From contig FMBT01000484.1 of the NCBI GenBank assembly GCA_900095095.1, positions 1 through 64,000 of the forward strand: DNA of 64,000 nucleotides, in the 5' to 3' direction. Below, in pieces: positions 36,321-50,585 of the stretch; the stretch's first letter is position 1; the number at the start of each line of letters is the position of its first letter. The stretch comes from Fragilariopsis cylindrus CCMP1102 (taxonomy: Eukaryota; Bacillariophyta; Bacillariophyceae; Bacillariales; Bacillariaceae). A model generated the notes under the pieces. It was not told the DNA's origin, did no database searches, and saw only the letters and a list, made by a program, of their open reading frames with translations. The position numbers were made by a program, and so were the translations under genes.

Positions 36321-38740
36321 TTTTTTATTCTTATTCTTACTTTGTTTTTTATATTGAAAAAGAAACGGAATTTATTTTATGATGACTGAACTTCGAGGAG
36401 CGAAAAAACGAACGAACGATCGATCTTTGATGTACCGGTACGAAGTATTGTAGAGGTAAAGCTAGCTAACAAAAGGCTCAAAGGCAGGACTTTTCTTACT
36501 CACTCGTATCAACGAAAATACAGTTGATATTTTTACATAAAAGCAATCTCGGCATGACATTTTTGTAGAAGCATAATAACTTTGATTATTCCATAGGTAT
36601 GTTCAAAAAGAGAACAAAAGGGCATAATGTTTAATTTGAAGAGCGACATCTCATGACGTTGCAATCCCAAATTCTCTGAAAAATTGACGAACGCAATAAA
36701 AAATGCAATTCTTCTTCAAGTCCCAAAAAGCTTAAGTATCCCCCCATTTCTCCGCGAACCACTTGATTCTAACATCATGAACTAGATTCTAACACAATTA
36801 ATTAATTAATCTACGACTAAACAATTAAACATCAGGGAGAATATCTAAAAAACGACGCAACTTTTTTTTTGTTTCTCCCACATGTTTACCACTCACTTAC
36901 ATTAAGTAAATTCAGATGACAGATAGTTCAATGTATACAGGAGCATATGTGAAAAAAAAATACGATTACGATTTGATTCGTTCGCCTCGCTTTTGTTAGT
37001 GTGTGGCACACTCTGTGCGAAACAATAAATCTCAATAAATAAATATTATTCCCGCTTACAGTATTTTCTTTAAAGTATCTAGCTTGTTGTTGTTGTTGTT
37101 GTTGTTCTTCTTCTTCTTCGAATAAATCAAAAGAAAAAATGCATTGAACTCCTTAATTAATTTTATTCTTCTGTATGACACCTACTCGACGACCAGGCAG
37201 CGTCACTCGACGACAATCAGCGATGCGTTTTACAGTATGCAGTTTCGAATTCGAATCGAATCGAATGTTGTTTATTGCTTTCGTTCCAATTATTGTTCAG
37301 TAAGTTAGTGGTACGATAGAAATTAAATAACAATAAAATAGTATTATTATTCAAATAATTATTCAATTTTCCTTCATATGATCTAGGACCTTCTAGGAAT
37401 ACATAAAAATGCGAATCGAATGTTTATTGCTCTCCGTTCTAATTATTCAAACCCTTCTGCACAGTAGTACTAGTAGCGTACGACAGAAATTAAATAACAA
37501 TATAATATTGTTATTATTCAAATAAACTATTCATCTTCCTTTCCAGGACCTTCTAGGAATATAAACTGTGCACGATGATTATAGTTCGCATATTTATTAG
37601 AGAACAAGACCTTTTTTTTTGCGATACTGTACAATAATTTATTTTTACAACGAAACTTCTTGTTCTATTAAAAAAATGCTTCTACGGAATGAAAGAATGA
37701 ATCAATATAATCGAGTGAATTCATCAATCGAATGGGTGACAACGCGCCGTACAGTAGTAACCAAAAGAAATAATCGACTACAGTAGAATGACGACGACAC
37801 GACGGAAGCAATACAATAATACCTAGCTTAGCTCAAATGGATTGATCGGCTGCATGCTCGTTGATAGAGAGATAGTAATGTATTGACAATATAGAATAAA
37901 AAAGATTATTCATTATAATATACCGATTATATTAATTAGTACGTCTTATTATTTTCAGCCTGAGAATCCTTTTGCTACACTGCGGAGTACTGTAGGGAAT
38001 ATATCTGATGGATGCCATGCAAGTCGAGCTGGACAAAAACGGAAATAATTACAGAACAATGATACTATAGAGCAAACTATCCTATAAGTCATATTGCATA
38101 ATACATATTATAGATACATTCTTACGCATACCTGCAAATATACAATACTGTACATACAAGTTAAAAGTAAAACCAAAGATGATATATTACAGTATTATAT
38201 TTTTTTCTATATTCTACATTACTTCGTTCAATAGTGTATGGCTTCTATTTTTGCAGGACTTGCAGTGCCTTTCTTTTGGTTGTTCTTTGTAGGCCATATA
38301 AAGACGTATAGTCGATATTATGCTGCTGCTGCTGCTGCTGCTCCTGCGTGCTTATTCTTGCTTAAATTCAAGACGGTAGGTATCATTATGCAGGTCGTTG
38401 TGAAAACTTCCCCCCGTTCGAAATTTTAGCTCCGTCGTCCGGGTCTATCTTGGAGTGGAAGCTCTATCTCGACGATTATGAAAGGAAAGATCGATTTGAT
38501 TCTCGTCTACTTTTTGGTTTTTTTTCTACTCTTTTTCTTCTTTCAATCCGACTAACTACGTGCGTGCTTATTGTCATTTTCTCGTTTTGCCTTTCGGTCA
38601 AATTTTGTCATACTGTATCCATTGTGCGAATTTTCGCTGCCATCTATCTTCCTTCAGCATTTCTTCTTCCTCTACAATAATAAGAGACATACTGTCATCT
38701 GGTAAGGATGCGACATATTATATCTGGATGTACATATAAT
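36321..38740. other. 2.4-kb intergenic region, no gene seen
   Basis: Promoter region of the Sec14-like/DUF6824 gene, then AT-rich DNA. It holds a (TTG)n run at 37086-37107, a local duplication at about 37250-37562, and a (GCT)n run near 38323-38342. Plus-strand frames at 38238 and 38450 are hydrophobic T-rich translations without support. Confidence 0.5.
37250..37562. repeat. two-unit tandem duplication, about 155 b
   Basis: Both units share CGAATCGAATGTT, TTATTGCT, GTTC.AATTATT, GA.AGAAATTAAATAACAATA, ATTATTATTCAAATAA and AGGACCTTCTAGGAATA. The second unit differs by small insertions. Confidence 0.75.
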
Positions 38741-39348
38741 TCAAGAAAGAACCATTGTTAGAATTCCACTCATTGTTAATGCTGGAAAGAATGAATATAA
38801 TAAGCCCGAAGAAGAAGAAACAATTGTAGGACTCAATGCATATGTAGGTGCGGAAGTGGGTTCGATAGTTGCTGATGGGCTTGGTGTAGTATACCCCCAA
38901 ACACAACTATCATCATCTATTTTAAGCAAAGCTGTAATAGAAAATGTGTCATCACCACCATTATTATCACCACGACACACTCCATCGTCATCACAGAATT
39001 CTACCTTGTACCCGGCGTTGTATACTCCAGGGGTGTTGTATATATTTGTACTGTTGACAGTTGTTTCAACACCATAAGGAATTTCTGTGAATGTTTGATA
39101 AGATGTAGGACCCAATCGAATGTATAGCTTACAGTATAGGTACCGCCTGCCGATTCGTCGTCGTCACCTCGTTGAATCTGCAGGAACGCTGTATTTATAT
39201 CTCCTACTTTTCCACATTGGAGACCACTTCCTACGGTGGTAGTCCTATTATCTTGTTGTCCATTCACTGAACTAGTATTGGCAATAAGCAGTGCAGCTGC
39301 AACTAGTAATAAATTCATAAGAATCATGTTTGATTTGTTGTAAGTCAT
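38741..39348 (-). CDS. PKD-like surface protein, frame-broken copy
   Basis: This is the inverted copy of the gene at 39974. The first part reads MTYNKSNMILMNLLLVAAAL (signal peptide) to VSYTFDW; the rest, GPTSYQTFTEIPYGVETTVN to the C-terminus SGILTMVLS, continues in the next frame. The break falls in a G run near 39110, where the sister gene has one more base. All other features are kept: the PKD-like strand pattern, PSPSATIEPTSAP linker, and hydrophobic tail. It carries an acidic insertion (DDDGVCRGDNNGGDD). Since there is no other lesion, it could be intact in the organism. Confidence 0.65.
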
Positions 39349-39385
39349 CGTTGATCTTCTTTCTTAACTATATTGAATATTGTAC

Positions 39386-39944
39386 TGTGCTGTTGTTGCT
39401 ATTAGATTTTCTTTCATGAGAAACAAAGCGCGATGCCATTGGAGGTTACAATTATTGTACTGTACTGTAATGCAAGCGATAGTAGACAGAACGATTGAGT
39501 CGAAAAGTCGATTGCATAAGCGCACAACACTTCCACTATTATTAAAACGACTTCACCGTGTATCATGCATACTAATACTAAGTTAGTCAATGAGTTAAAT
39601 GTTGAATTAAGAACATGAATCAATCATTGTGTATTTACTTAACTATCACGACTTAAAAATTGAACACTGAGCGGGTTTCACGCGCGACGAACATTTTTTA
39701 GTCTATAGTTATCATGCAATCGTGCAAAAACGAGAGAGATACTGCATGGGCTATGTTACAAAAAGCCACGACTCTATTACTTTTAAGTTTTTTTAATCGT
39801 TAGTACGAGTAGTCCCCATACATGTCCATGTGCACTGTAGTCGTAGTCCACATAAGTCAACTCGTGCACAAAAAAATTAAATAAATGTCCTCATCGAAGT
39901 TCATCGTCTTCTTACAAACAACAAACTACAAAAATCGTACAATA
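39386..39944. promoter_or_regulatory. shared divergent promoter of the PKD-like pair
   Basis: 560 b separate the two leaders. The outer edges are inverted copies; the centre is unique, with a TACTGTACTGTA word at 39456 and a CACGCGCGACG patch near 39680. It must serve both genes. Confidence 0.45.
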
Positions 39945-39973
39945 TTCAATATAGTTAAGAAAGAAGATCGACG

Positions 39974-40555
39974 ATGACTTACAACAGATCAAACATGATT
40001 CTTATGAATTTATTATTACTAGTTGCAGCTGTACTGCTTATTGCCAATACTGGTTCAGTGAATGGACAGCAAAATAATGCTAACTTTTCTACTGAATTTA
40101 CTTTTGGTGGCGGTGGTGGTCAAGGAGGAGGTGGTATGCAATGCACAAAAGTAGGCGATACTAATACAGCGTTCCTTCGGATAACAGGCGGTAATGTAAG
40201 CTATACATTCGATTGGGGCCCTACATCTTATACCACATTAACAGAACTTCCTTCTGGTGTTAGAACAACTGTCAACAGTACACATGTATACAAAACCACT
40301 GGAGAATACAACATGAGTTTTTCGGTAGAATTCTATGATGAAGATGGAAAGTTTGGTGGCGGATATGGTACCACAACTTTGCTTAAAATAGATGATGATA
40401 GTTGTGTTGTGTTTGGCCAAGTTTTTACGCCAAGTCCATCAGCAACTCTCGAACCCACTTCCGCACCTATATATGTTTCTTCTTCTTCGGGCTTATTATA
40501 TTCATTCTTTCCAGCATTAACAATGAGTGGAATTCTAACGATGGTTCTTTCTTGA
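39974..40555 (+). CDS. PKD-like, probably GPI-anchored surface protein
   Basis: 193 residues, intact. Residues 1-31 are a signal peptide (NMILMNLLLLVAAVLLIANT, cut near VNG|QQ). A Gly-rich spacer follows. Residues 65-125 show the PKD pattern: VSYTFDWGPTSY, then THVYKTTGEYNMSFSVEFYD (compare 'W.FGDG...HTY...G.Y.V...V.D' in PKD domains). Then comes a Ser/Pro linker PSPSATLEPTSAP, a style common in diatom wall and surface proteins. The C-terminal 20 residues (YSFFPALTMSGILTMVLS) are hydrophobic with no basic stop after them, which suits a GPI-anchor signal. Role unknown; adhesion or matrix binding is a guess from the fold. It forms a head-to-head pair with 38741-39348. Confidence 0.75.
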   Translation: MTYNRSNMILMNLLLLVAAVLLIANTGSVNGQQNNANFSTEFTFGGGGGQGGGGMQCTKVGDTNTAFLRITGGNVSYTFDWGPTSYTTLTELPSGVRTTVNSTHVYKTTGEYNMSFSVEFYDEDGKFGGGYGTTTLLKIDDDSCVVFGQVFTPSPSATLEPTSAPIYVSSSSGLLYSFFPALTMSGILTMVLS

Positions 40556-40600
40556 ATTATATGTACATCAAGATATAATGTCGCGCATCCTTACCAGACG

Positions 40601-41800
40601 AACTATATTGTTATCACAAAACCACAGTAGGTGGTCCCCATCATATTCTTGCTATGTTTAGGATAGGATCTTTAATTTGTTATAAAACAATTATGTTATA
40701 AATACAATTTACTCTCTCACGCTAAAAACTATAGTTGGATCAACGAAAGTTTTATGAATTGTTATACCAGCAATAACACTTTTACATGCCGATTGATGTT
40801 GTTTACTATTACAGGTGATAGCTTCGCTAAAAGCTAGCGAATCGATAGGAAGTACACTGTAGTAGGTTACAGTAGTGAGCTGGGTGAAGGAATGTTTAGA
40901 TCGAAAGAAATACCAATAAAATATTTGACCTTAATTTACAAAAACTCTGATAGTATAGTATACTGCGTTTGTATATGATATGTTAAGCCTCCTCCACTTT
41001 ATTCCTACCAGATGCACCGTTGTAACGATTTCTTCCACGTCGTTTAGAATTTACCTAATCGTTTCTGTTGTAGCGAGACTCCTGCTGATCGTATTGGTTG
41101 TTGCCGTAGTTGTATACTTTGCAGGAACCGCGCATTTCTTTGCTGTTGTTTATGATGTATGTAGCTGTCGTAAATTTCGCGAGCAACCGCTATCGATTGG
41201 AATATCAGATTTATTATGACTAGTAAATAAAACTATAGGATAGAATCTGCCACTGTTAACCTGATGTGTTCCACAAACAACGGGTAAAATAGATGCTATT
41301 AATCTTCTTATTAATATGGTAAGGGTTGCTTCTCACTTTCCTAGATAGACTGCTAGGATTGTTCTACCAGGCTACTCACCCTTCTTGAATACGGACCTCT
41401 ATTGATAAAGAGATGGTTATTCTTTCTGTGGATATATCTATTGATATCACTATTGCAATACCTCAAATCAGCTCAAACGAAAAGGGTTGTTATTAACACA
41501 CTTGTTTATTTAGTCTATGGTTATTGCACAATTTGTCAACAATAAAAGATAAAGGTAGAGCCTTTCTCGTAATCTTGGTCGTTTGGTGTCTTTTGGTACT
41601 GCGGTAACTTCATATTCAACTGTATTCATAACATCACTTCGTCTAATACAGTGTTTGTATTAGCGGTTTTTGGTCCACACTTCTTTTCTTTGTGCTTTGA
41701 CTTCAACTAACTGGTCACAACTGTTCAACATTTACTTTACGGACATAATTCCTTATGTATATTTAACACTTTCCAAATGGAAGCAATAAATTAACTGAAC
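40601..41800. other. intergenic, no gene firmly supported
   Basis: A 79-codon plus-strand frame (40980-41219) has a hydrophobic centre (LIVSVVARLLLIVLVVAVVV) but no start context, homology or leader that I can recognise, so I leave it uncalled. The rest is AT-rich. Confidence 0.45.
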
Positions 41801-44094
41801 TTAAGGAATTGCTCCATTAGGGATCATTACTCCATCGACAACGTGGGCAACTCCATTGCCTATAAAGGAGAGAGAATAGAAGGAGGATGGAAGTAAAAGT
41901 TGGAAATAGAGAGAGAGAGAGAGAGAGAGAGAAAGAAATGAGTGGTCAACCGATAATGAAACGACAAAGGTAGAAGGCAGGTATATAAGAAACGTACAAA
42001 ATTTGATATCAGTTTGAATGATTTGAGCAGAGTTATCAAGTTGGTCATTCCCGGCACCATTCTGATACATTGCATCGTTGTTACATTTGGTGCGACTTGA
42101 ATCACCATTGAACATTTGAACTTTTTCTGTACATTTGAGGTCATCGCTGCTGAGAACTTTACCAGCAACGGCGTGAAACATAAGCTAGATAGAAAGGTAT
42201 GTGGTAGAAAACAAAAGAATTACATAATTAGGAAGGCAAGGTTTCTTAAAGGAGTTGATTGTGATATACCAAATAAAAGAACGCAACAACGTACAATATT
42301 GGTGATAGCGTCATTGGACAATGATCCAAGTAACTCTCCAGAACTCTCAATAGCCTCATCGTTTGGAATGAAAACCGTCCATGTTTCTTTGTCAAAGGAG
42401 GAATCTAGATTAGCAGCCTTCAATGCATCACAGAAAAGACCAAAATCCTTGCTGTTGCAAACAATGTTTTCTGTTATATTTATAAAATTTAAGTAGAGAA
42501 CAAGAAGTGTGTTAGTAGAAGCATCAACTGTGTTTGACAATAAAATAGATTCAAATGAGCATCGGATTATGAATAAGACCCACATAAACTTACCGAGTGT
42601 TTCACACTTATCATCGTCATTGTCATTGCCGCCACTATCACTATCTCCTAGCATGTTCTCTGGATCAACAATAGTGACAATGGCGCATTGAGTCCAAACC
42701 TGTGCTGTTTGTTCGCAATCCCATCTCCAGCTAACAACATAATCACCACTTAGACCTTCAGGGACCTTCAATTCGTCAACAACTTTCCAACTATGAACAG
42801 CTGCCAAATCAGGACCATTCCACAATGGGTCGGAGTTGGAGCTGCCGTAGCCGTAATATCCCGGAGGGGCGTGATCCGTGAACTGTGGTCCACGTGTACA
42901 GGTCCCTTGTAGACCGCCGCTCAAGCCGGCACATGCAGGAATACCAATTTTCCTCCATGTGCTACCCTTCGGCATGACACCGTCCGTATTACCGTCATCG
43001 ATATCTATTGCGTCAAAGGTAATATTTACGGAAACGGTGCCTTCATCAGACATTGCAATAAATGCAGATTTATCATTGGCAAATTCCATCACGGTTGATT
43101 GGAAGCAGCTTTCGTCGAGTGTGTTGTTATCCAAATTCTCGACAGGACAGAGACGATATTGATGCCCTCCACCGTGATTGGCTGCAACATTATACGCCCC
43201 TTCAACAATTTCCCCAGCAGTCCAAATGATTGGATATGCGGCAGCCGATTTACCCTGTGCATCTTGCATCCGAGTATTTACTGTCCAGGATAGGACAGTA
43301 GATCCTAGAGTTCCAGCGGGAGGGTCCATATACCTAGGCGGCATATGAAAATTGATACCAAGACCTGTATTGTCTTCCCAATCGTAGAAATCACTGCCGG
43401 GTCCAGCAATGTAATCTCTTGCATTTTTATATTTCCACCCACCAAGAACACCGCAAGAATCAACGACGGGTGCAGTTCCAGGAAGGAACCACGGATTGCC
43501 TGAGTAAACTGATGCCGAAATATTGCCTTTGTCTACCTCGGCCTGTCTATATTCCATATCCTTTACACACTCTTTGGTATCATTTTTATAATGCACGACT
43601 GCGGGTTCGTTGTAACGGGCAGGGTAATCACCCTCGCAGTCGCCATCAAAGTAGAACTTTGGGAACGAAATCTGGTCGATACTTTTCAAAGTTGGTTCCA
43701 TCAATTCTTCGCAAAACGCCCACTTTCCCTTTGGATTTTCACCCTACAAAGGGAGAAAGGGAAAATCAAAATAGAAAGTAGAACAAGTCCAGGTGATGAG
43801 TTTGCAATGGTGGAAAAGTTCATGCTGCATATCCGCAAGGATTATTGTTCTATTAACATAGTCATAACATAAAGCCGTACTTACTGTTGCGTTGCATCCT
43901 GGCGCTGTTCCGGTTGTAAACCAATGAGCATTGTACCCATCGAATGCTGCAGTCACAGTTTCAGCACATTCACCACGGCAAGGGGTTGCTATCAGCTCCA
44001 GACTCGCTGGATAAATTAATGAACCGTGTCCTAAAACGGATAGAACCGCAGAAGAGGTGATGGCGATTCGGAGGCATGCACTACTAAGCTTCAT
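41801..44094 (-). CDS. secreted LPMO-like protein fused to a FAS1 domain, 5 exons
   Basis: Proposed exons 44094..43885, 43743..42594, 42470..42295, 42193..41998, 41859..41801 give 596 residues; every junction is GT-AG and keeps frame. Lytic polysaccharide monooxygenases use copper to cut crystalline polysaccharides such as chitin. A signal peptide ends at G22, leaving His23 (HGSLIYP) as the mature N-terminus, the first half of the copper 'histidine brace'. The second His lies in NHGGGHQYRLCP (260 or 264). The fold's last strands read GDYVVSWRWDCEQTAQVW then TQCAIVTI (404-428). After an acidic linker, residues 454-596 form a fasciclin domain: SKDFGLFCDALKAANL, TVFIPNDEAI, LMFHAVAGKVLSSDDL and NGVAHVVDGVMIP. 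FAS1 domains serve adhesion, so the fusion may hold the enzyme in the matrix. The substrate is unproven; chitin is plausible. Confidence 0.85.
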
Positions 44095-44289: not shown

Positions 44290-45080
44290 AAATTCATTTT
44301 TTCGCTTCTTCTCTTTCAAATCTTCTCATTCCTATTTCGCGGAGTTTTTGTTTGATGCTTGACCGAAGATTGCATCGATTTCGCGCTACCGGAAGTACAA
44401 TTTACTTAAAGCACACAATATACCAACCAATGGTACTATGTAGATTTTTCTCTGGGCACGCACCGCTAGAATGAAGGAATGAATCATTTTTCACTTCTTC
44501 TCTTTCAAATCTTCCCATTCCTATTTCGCTCTGTCAGTTTAGCGCTACCATTTTCGCGCTACCGCAAGTAAGATTGGGTCGTCGACCAATGGGAATGGAA
44601 GTTTGCTTGTTTCGCATCTTTTCTGTTATTTTGACTCGTGCTCTTTGAGTACAATGCAGTGCGCCTGTACTTAGCGGTATTCATTCTTTAAGTAGATGGG
44701 CGTGTGAGGGATAAGTAACAAGGGGCGGACGTATCAAAATAATGATACCGGAGATGCGTCCACTTCACATCTGCACATTTTGACTGCGTGCGAAGAAGGT
44801 TCTTCAAAGTTCAAAGTTAATTATGATGCGCGAGGTGACATCTGTTAAGTAAGGCTGGTGCCAAGACTAGATAATAATATTATGGTCGAATCAAGAATTT
44901 TCCCACGTAACAGAGAGCGCATTACTGTACGTTTGCAATCTTCGGTCAAGCTCAGGCAAGATCATTTTTCGCTTCTTCTCTTTCAAATCTTCTCATTCTT
45001 ATTTCGCTCTACTGTACCAGTTTAGCAGTACCATTTTCGCACTACTGCAAGTAAAATTTACTTAAAGCACACAAGTTCAT
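44290..45080 (+). repeat. three interspersed copies of a 110-b repeat
   Basis: Copies at about 44293-44430, 44483-44578 and 44958-45075 share TTCGCTTCTTCTCTTTCAAA, TCTTC.CATTC.TATTTCGC, GCGCTACC.(G/C)AAGTA and ATTTACTTAAAGCACACAA. The word CTTGACCGAAGATTGCA (44360) also occurs inverted at 44937, so the block has been rearranged. Confidence 0.75.
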
Positions 45081-49200: not shown

Positions 49201-50128
49201 AGCAGGTACGGTAGGTAGGTAGACAAGGAGGTAGAAACAAAAAGCAAAAAATAAAGTGCGTCGAGTCGAGGCGAGATATTAAAAAACGTGAGTGAGAGAG
49301 AGAAAAAGAGTGGAGTAACATTAGCAGAGATCAGAACCATCATCGTAATGAATGAAAAAAAGAAAAAGAAAAAAACATAACAGCAGAAAGCGAGTGGCAA
49401 TGGCAAGGCAAGGCCAAGTAGGTAGTTGTCGTAGATGAACTTAATATAACACTTACATTATCTGGACGATCGGGATAATAGGTAATTCTACGAAATCCCA
49501 TTGCTTCACATTGTGTACAATACATTGGACCACTACTTTGATACAATCCACTTAATTGTGTATTATCCTCAGGTATAATAGAAACTCGTGTTTTCAATAA
49601 TGATCCGGATGGTGGATTTTTAATAATTAATTTGGTTGAATCTAAAGTGTAATCATCACCTTCTTTTAATACTTTGCCATCTAATGTTACTTCTAACAAT
49701 GTTATAGATGTTTCATCACCATCTAATACCAGGTCGTGTTGTGCTTTTGGATCCCAATCATTTTCTAATTTTGGATTTTTTTCAATAAACATTTCGGACT
49801 CGACGATAGTTTTTCCATCACGGATATTAAAATCCATATTGATTTTGGAGACAATTAAATCTAATGGTTTATAATCAAGTCTGAAGATTTCAGTAGGCTT
49901 TTTCGTATCCACGTCATCATCGGTAGTAGTTGTACTCATACTTAAACTTGAAGCACCTCCACGAGAAGATAAAGCGGCGGATGCACAGCTTTTTCCGTCC
50001 TTAGCAGACGAACAAGTATTGTTTGAGATTGAGGTAGAGGTTGCCGATAGGACTGTCCGTGGTGCGAAGGCTGTTGTTGATGCAGCAGCGGCAAGAATAA
50101 TCCAAGAAGAAAAATTAGATACTTTCAT
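46224..50128 (-). CDS. aminopeptidase N, bacterial PepN type (M1), plastid-targeted, 4 exons
   Basis: Exons 50128..49457, 49067..48556, 48247..46737 and 46476..46224, about 982 residues. M1 aminopeptidases remove N-terminal residues from peptides with one zinc. The exopeptidase motif GAMENKG and the zinc motif HEYFHNWT...[13 protein letters not shown] (HExxH-18-E) are complete; the second intron cuts between HNWT and GNR. The whole length follows Escherichia coli PepN ([33 protein letters not shown]). The ATG at 50128 gives a signal peptide ending ASTTA|FAP, the diatom plastid motif; the frame is open to an earlier ATG at 50314. There is one frame break in exon 3 at the A run 47393-47398 (T run on the coding strand): one more base restores [19 protein letters not shown], so I treat the gene as functional. 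It should finish the breakdown of peptides in the plastid. Confidence 0.88.
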
Positions 50129-50585
50129 TTTGTTTGTAGTAATAGTTTTCGTTGTAATAGTAGTAGGATGGAGTGGTTGAGAGGCGGCACGAAAGAGTGG
50201 ACGTCTTTCTGATGATAATGATCGGCTACTGTTCAACTGATTGTATTGATGAAGACAAGAAAGAGATCTCGGCGTTTTTGTGGATGACGATAGGAAGATT
50301 CTTATTCCAAGCATATCATATAAAGTAAGTGATCGAGTAGATACTGTAGATAGATGTCACTTACAGGATGTGGCTGTTGCCGTCGTTTAAAGTAGCGAGT
50401 GTTCTTGAGTGGGTGGGGTGAGTGAGTCAAGATCTGTGAATGATGGCTGATGGCTGATGAGCGATCACGTACGTGATCTGTTAAAAATTTAAATTTATGT
50501 GTTCGTTGTTTGCGATCTTTTTGTAATTTTTTGACCAATCAAATAAGGCCATTTTGAAAGATTACTTCTTTTAAACCTCGGTATT
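50129..50585. promoter_or_regulatory. PepN leader and promoter region
   Basis: The frame of PepN stays open to an ATG at 50314, adding 62 residues rich in S and R with few acids (MLGIRIFLSSSTKTPRS...), which look like a mitochondrial presequence. Upstream of that, 50330-50560, nothing coding is seen. Confidence 0.45.

Follow-up and report, generated by a model that had tools for sequence, protein, structure and literature searches.

A divergent LPMO-like domain joined to a fasciclin domain in the diatom Fragilariopsis cylindrus, with tryptophan predicted at the axial copper position

The locus and its gene model

The stretch of DNA analyzed here, referred to as the window, comprises 64,000 nucleotides of contig C501 from Fragilariopsis cylindrus, and the genome in which searches were performed amounts to 67.9 Mb in 818 contigs. 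The gene under study runs on the minus strand from 44094 to 41801, and its spliced model consists of five exons encoding 593 residues (Table 1), separated by GT-AG introns of 141, 123, 110 and 138 nt; protein-to-genome alignment of the encoded protein reproduces identical exons. A preliminary description of this DNA had placed one spliced protein of 596 residues at positions 41801-44094, coordinates which are exact to the base, and while the single spliced protein is borne out by the model, its length is three residues shorter than had been supposed.

Table 1. Coordinates of the fused gene and of its predicted functional positions within the window.
Feature	Position	Strand	Basis
Exon 1: initiation codon, residues 1-22 (signal-like) and first residues of the mature protein (HGSLIYP...)	43885..44094	-	Spliced model
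Exon 2: LPMO-like domain body and acidic linker	42594..43743	-	Spliced model; profile match to AoAA13
Exon 3: initial portion of FAS1 (TWTVFIPND)	42295..42470	-	Spliced model, Pfam
Exon 4: middle of FAS1 (LMFHAVAGK)	41998..42184	-	Spliced model, Pfam
Exon 5: terminal portion of FAS1 (CNGVAHVVDGVMIP) with the stop codon	41801..41859	-	Spliced model, Pfam
FAS1 domain, residues 462-588, exons 3-5, span including introns	41819..42447	-	PF02469
His23 codon: expected first residue of the mature protein, amine and side chain predicted to bind copper	44026..44028	-	12/12 loci
His260 codon in ANHGGG: predicted second copper ligand	43174..43176	-	Alignment with AoAA13 His91; 12/12 loci
Trp420 codon in QVWTQC: predicted axial copper position	42694..42696	-	Alignment with AoAA13 Tyr224; 12/12 loci

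Other features were observed in the vicinity of this gene. Just upstream of it, at 44294-45010, a 50-nt repeat is present in three copies, the 28-nt core of which was counted 33 times genome-wide with three mismatches or fewer (none in the backward control) and is also found near the paralogue C659. At 38695-40601, two genes that are related to each other and whose products look secreted point in opposite directions (ORF 38741-39348 on the minus strand, ORF 39974-40555 on the plus strand), associated with inverted-repeat arms of up to 136 nt at 93%; for the plus-strand copy, Pfam returned nothing at E up to 0.01. An apparent M1 aminopeptidase at 49340-50314, whose M1_N match is below the cut-off (20.9 of 25.8 bits), carries near its start an AFAP motif, a diatom plastid signal. 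This motif, the introns in the genes of the contig and the abundance of FAS1 in the genome all agree with a diatom origin.

Domain architecture of the encoded protein

Residues 1-22 form a signal-like segment ending in VLG and followed by His23, from which cleavage at G22|H23 is inferred; the mature start LG|HGSLIYP, as well as NHGGGHQYRLCP and WRWDCEQTAQVWTQC, which had been named earlier for a second His and for the closing strands, are all present in the spliced model. The LPMO-like domain extends from residue 23 to about residue 430, a boundary that is set there because an unfused relative of the same genome, C317 (a single exon of 416 residues), stops two residues past the same TIVTI strand. 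The LPMO-like domain is connected by a linker of some 20 residues, enriched in Asp, Gly, Ser and Asn, to one complete FAS1 domain, whose match to PF02469 (E 6.2e-21; 75.3 bits against a curated cut-off of 22) covers positions 2-123 of the 123 of the profile and establishes membership of that family, in agreement with the full C-terminal FAS1 domain proposed at the outset. A further Pfam assignment, ABC_membrane_2 at E 0.25, is taken as chance, and a starch-binding module is absent according to the same search. A GPI anchor was considered and rejected, as the C-terminal 20 residues still belong to the FAS1 domain, which ends the protein with a mean hydropathy of 0.9 and no hydrophobic tail.

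A family of fused and unfused genes

The LPMO-like domain is encoded at twelve genomic loci, a count which leaves out partial matches at C439, C213, C93 and C628 and which may correspond to eleven genes, given that C317 and C341, with the same match scores, are probably two haplotypes. Seven of these loci carry FAS1 (C501, C464, C659, C47a, C47b, C81 and C645), and FAS1 motifs are absent from the stretches of 8.5 to 9 kb inspected at the five unfused loci. A His following the signal-like segment, ANHGGG, [DN]SCG[VI]LGGW and QVW are each found at all twelve. Outside this genome, pattern searches returned 26 stretches in viral_contigs and 47 in genome_contigs, none of which was confirmed as a relative, while the NHGGG DNA pattern gave no viral stretch and two bacterial ones with translations that look unrelated by eye.

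In the models of the fused copies, only C501 and C464 possess an unbroken reading frame, and because apparent frame breaks affect the other five, part of the family is either decaying or misassembled. In exon 1 of both C659 and C47a a single base is missing at a stretch of C, the frame of C81 shifts at a stretch of G, and false introns are required to model C47b and C645; homopolymer assembly error is a possible source of some of these breaks. The unfused C72 contains two stops.

Joining of the two domains, intron loss and selection

The fusion of the LPMO-like and FAS1 domains is real and repeated. The signal-like start and both domains had been assigned to one protein on the basis of the window, and this assignment is supported by the spliced model and by an intronless fused copy, C47a, in which all four introns are missing and most of the LPMO part is continuous with FAS1 in a single open frame of 551 residues; this copy speaks, indirectly, against two separate transcripts. 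Intron 2, which separates the domains, lies at the same position in the models of five of the seven fused copies and is gone in C47a. In C81, a near relative of the latter, introns 2 to 4 sit at their usual places and the donor of intron 1 is present, and in C47b introns 3 and 4 are gone but the first two remain. The alignment breaks sit at the intron borders, within the few-base overlaps of the aligned pieces, with one exception: the comparison of C47a with C81 shows, in addition, a stretch that does not align just past intron 1, a border that is clean when C47a is compared with C47b. Since the introns were lost at their borders, C47a is best explained by a reverse-transcribed mRNA, and the intron losses at C47 (all four in one copy, the last two in the other) were apparently mRNA-mediated. 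The absence of introns at the junctions of C47a argues that a spliced mRNA once spanned both domains, and the fusion is thus best explained as being, or having been, on one message. The two fused copies at C47 (L046, L047) are about 5 kb apart and in opposite orientation.

Judged by dN/dS, which was calculated for eight pairs drawn from five of the seven fused copies (C47b and C645 being left out, and the breaks of some copies being bridged by the aligner), both domains appear to be under purifying selection. Values for FAS1 range from 0.24 to 0.37 in all eight pairs, and those for the LPMO part, counted from EPTLKS onward, from 0.27 to 0.41 in seven; the eighth, C47a/C81, reaches 0.50, where the count began at residue 1, EPTLKS being missing in C47a, and took in a frame-broken stretch. 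The value of 0.41, obtained for C501/C464, does not amount to strong constraint. Among C501, C464 and C659 (L043, L044 and L045), dS is 0.08-0.12 for FAS1 versus 0.33-0.50 for the LPMO part, indicating that the FAS1 end was homogenized more recently, perhaps by gene conversion.

Relationship of the N-terminal domain to LPMOs

The N-terminal domain had been called LPMO-like, and a search against LPMO_10 (PF03067) had been proposed as a means of checking this; the name is upheld by profile comparison, whereas the curated cut-off of PF03067 is not reached. On the whole C501 protein that family matches residues 394-424 only, at 17.1 bits under a cut-off of 23, and it scores 18.6 bits for the domain alone and 19.5 bits for C317. 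Each of the six family members aligned as A1 reaches PF03067 with an E of 1 or less, the best being 0.0008, and NCBIfam assigned no family.

When the six-member A1 profile was compared with PDB sequences, the sole match at E up to 10 was AoAA13, a starch LPMO of family AA13 (E 8.2e-6), in two weak collinear blocks of 10.0 and 18.5 bits which include the second His and the axial strand, and the profile of the reversed sequences had no match at E up to 10. The single C501 sequence also retrieved AoAA13 only, besides FAS1 proteins, at E 0.0069 (0.0019 for the domain alone), and C317 alone retrieved nothing among PDB sequences at E up to 10, a result which speaks against easy assignment. Profile comparison of A1 with the LPMO of C604, an LPMO_10-GH18 chitinase of the same genome, gave a probability of 26% (E 0.0007) for a 59-column region surrounding the second His, which agrees with an LPMO relation without being decisive. 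Because the landmarks are kept at all twelve loci, A1 hits one LPMO and the reversed profile is empty, the match is not regarded as chance, and at the profile level these comparisons identify the N-terminal domain as a divergent relative of LPMOs.

The predicted copper site

Counted along the printed alignment, His260 corresponds to AoAA13 His91 and Trp420 to AoAA13 Tyr224, the two residues that complete the copper site of that enzyme (PMC4338556). By alignment a predicted second copper His is present at every locus of the family in the form of His260. The earlier suggestion had been either His260 or His264, and of these the former is the better candidate: His264 is kept in six of the seven fused loci (C47b breaks frame at that spot), and it was rejected as a ligand as Ile, Phe or Tyr occupies its position in the five unfused loci, which makes His260 the likely second histidine of the brace. 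It lies 237 positions past His23, compared with an equivalent spacing of 90 in AoAA13, and the conserved NPW..PG.APV..SCG.LGGW falls in this long intervening segment and may shape the substrate face.

The axial position is the point at which the predicted site departs from known enzymes. Tyr224 is described as invariant in AA13 (PMC4338556), and a 2024 paper states that the axial residue is Tyr or Phe in all LPMOs (PMC11137697); at the twelve loci studied here, the aligned residue is Trp. Trp420 and Phe238 of the C604 LPMO share column 177 of Pfam LPMO_10, provided that both ends align gap-free. No report of an LPMO with axial Trp was found in the literature searched, which covered few subscription papers. 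Gln418-x-Trp420 retains the spacing between Gln and the aromatic residue, and since this equals that of Gln219-x-Tyr221 in MaAA10B (PMC11137697), a working second sphere can be argued, just as altered reactivity can be argued from the Trp itself. Given this departure from the Tyr/Phe rule, the predicted site may not cut sugars. It is this single odd residue, within a divergent LPMO-like domain, that would appear to be the most interesting point of the locus.

Possible substrates

Similar algal proteins carry the name chitin-binding type-4, and chitin fibrils had been put forward, beside the cell's own matrix, as a target of the present protein. Chitin is not supported as a target and is not favored: chitin work seems to be assigned elsewhere, because the genome has the LPMO_10-GH18 protein C604 among its three GH18 loci, and FAS1 points to no substrate. 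Although these GH18 loci exist, a six-frame search of the assembly gave no candidates for the chitin synthase family PF03142 (its control being detected in four of 14 genomes), an absence that is weak, as a synthase gene interrupted by introns or by a gap in the assembly could have been missed; the PF01644 search was uninformative, its control having been detected nowhere. Fasciclins, on the other hand, have been found in diatom adhesion trails according to studies cited in PMC10939406, which mentions rafting as a hypothesis, and because of this tie to adhesion trails the wall or the mucilage would be a better guess than chitin.

Proposed function and alternative explanations

The explanation favored here, and considered fairly probable from what the sequences show, is that the protein is secreted and works at the algal surface as an LPMO-type copper enzyme, acting on the alga's own wall or mucilage and tethered there by its FAS1 domain. 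Signal cleavage would expose His23, whose side chain and N-terminal amine would bind copper together with His260; the predicted copper site, with Trp420 beneath it in place of Tyr or Phe, would activate O2 or H2O2, and would oxidize a polysaccharide belonging to this wall or mucilage, while FAS1 would hold the enzyme in the matrix by binding glycans or proteins. Points that speak against this explanation are the score below the LPMO_10 cut-off, the failure of C317 alone to retrieve a PDB sequence, the axial Trp, the wide spacing of the two histidines, the frame breaks in five fused copies and the modest constraint on the LPMO part of C501/C464. A more ambitious version of this explanation, which we offer tentatively and with more doubt than conviction, is that of a new LPMO-type class of algal surface enzymes in which the copper site is built around Trp and a large insertion separates the two brace histidines; the FAS1-joined branch would be a matrix-anchored oxidative enzyme of wall remodeling, present in seven copies in one diatom.

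The axial Trp would also suit a surface copper protein that does not cut, anchored by FAS1 and serving copper uptake, storage or H2O2 chemistry in the manner proposed for the X325/Bim1-type LPMO look-alikes; histidine-brace proteins with altered copper surroundings have been linked to copper transport (PMC10952591). This role is unlikely, if still to be reckoned with: Gln418, in the catalytic second sphere, is retained together with both histidines, and X325 is reported in the same source to have Asp at the fourth copper site, a change unlike the one seen here. The same substitution, together with the apparent frame breaks in five of the seven fused copies and the homogenization of FAS1, could alternatively be read as a loss of enzyme function after which the domain would serve, next to FAS1, only for adhesion or binding, but the set of brace motifs kept at all twelve loci would be needless for a pure binding module, and such a loss seems highly improbable.

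Just as improbable is an AA13-type enzyme that acts on exuded or bacterial alpha-glucan, including starch. AA13 did provide the only LPMO matched in the PDB, yet it did so in weak blocks, with Trp in place of its invariant Tyr, a much longer segment between the two histidines and, according to Pfam, no accompanying starch-binding module; diatoms, moreover, store beta-1,3-glucan and not starch. That two adjacent genes have been wrongly joined, as the separate exons of the two domains in the window might suggest, can practically be dismissed, given the intronless frame of C47a, which holds both domains, and the recurrence of the linker and of the intron positions in other copies.

If the surface-bound, LPMO-type enzyme favored here were active and its axial Trp real, it would break a rule stated for all LPMOs and offer a natural test of the effect of this residue on copper chemistry. 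If FAS1 indeed tethers it, an oxidative enzyme would be bound to the surface of an alga and directed at its own wall or mucilage, in a group of organisms whose PF03067 sequences are otherwise grouped with the enzymes of chitin: 1,232 such diatom sequences have been listed in chitin-related families and called chitinase sequences (PMC10134812).

Comparison with known systems

By sequence, the nearest known system is the starch LPMO AoAA13 (PDB 4opb), the only structure retrieved by the A1 profile, with which the protein shares the alignment of His260 with His91 and of QTAQVWTQC with QTGQIYLSC. It differs from AoAA13 in the axial residue and in the spacing of the two histidines, as well as in its FAS1 partner and its diatom host.

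With regard to the pairing of domains, AA15 is the system that most needs to be considered. The combination of an LPMO-like domain with FAS1 had been called unusual; it is certainly present here, but its rarity is tempered by a 2019 profile study, which notes in one sentence, naming no sequences, that a fasciclin domain occurs in some AA15 members (PMC6950343); in PMC8371367, LPMO and fasciclin are listed under different proteins. In addition to this pairing, a string of the form H-x-G-...-R-L-C-...-CF resembles that of the Thermobia AA15; the AA15 structure 5msz, however, was not matched by the A1 profile at E up to 10. As for the other half of the protein, secreted diatom fasciclins provide the parallel, FAS1 being a big family in this genome with at least 150 matches, and the nearest FAS1 outside the fused genes belongs to C500 (47% identity), which, unlike the fused genes, is not among the matches of the LPMO-like domain.

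Within the same genome, the 798-residue chitinase C604 resembles the present protein in its His1, in a second His within AHH and in an axial-type aromatic residue three positions ahead of a Cys. This gene (L061:2777-5173) combines in one open frame an AA15-like LPMO_10 domain, a chitin-binding-like stretch (below the Pfam cut-off, at 21.9 of 27.8 bits) and GH18. Unlike the domain of C501, its LPMO_10 match is over the cut-off (58.3 bits), its AA15-like relationship is found at E 2.4e-4 and its axial-type residue is Phe; it has no FAS1 by Pfam, and its GH18 partner ties it to chitin. LPMO_10 has been described as an auxiliary domain of chitinases in T. pseudonana (PMC7874618).
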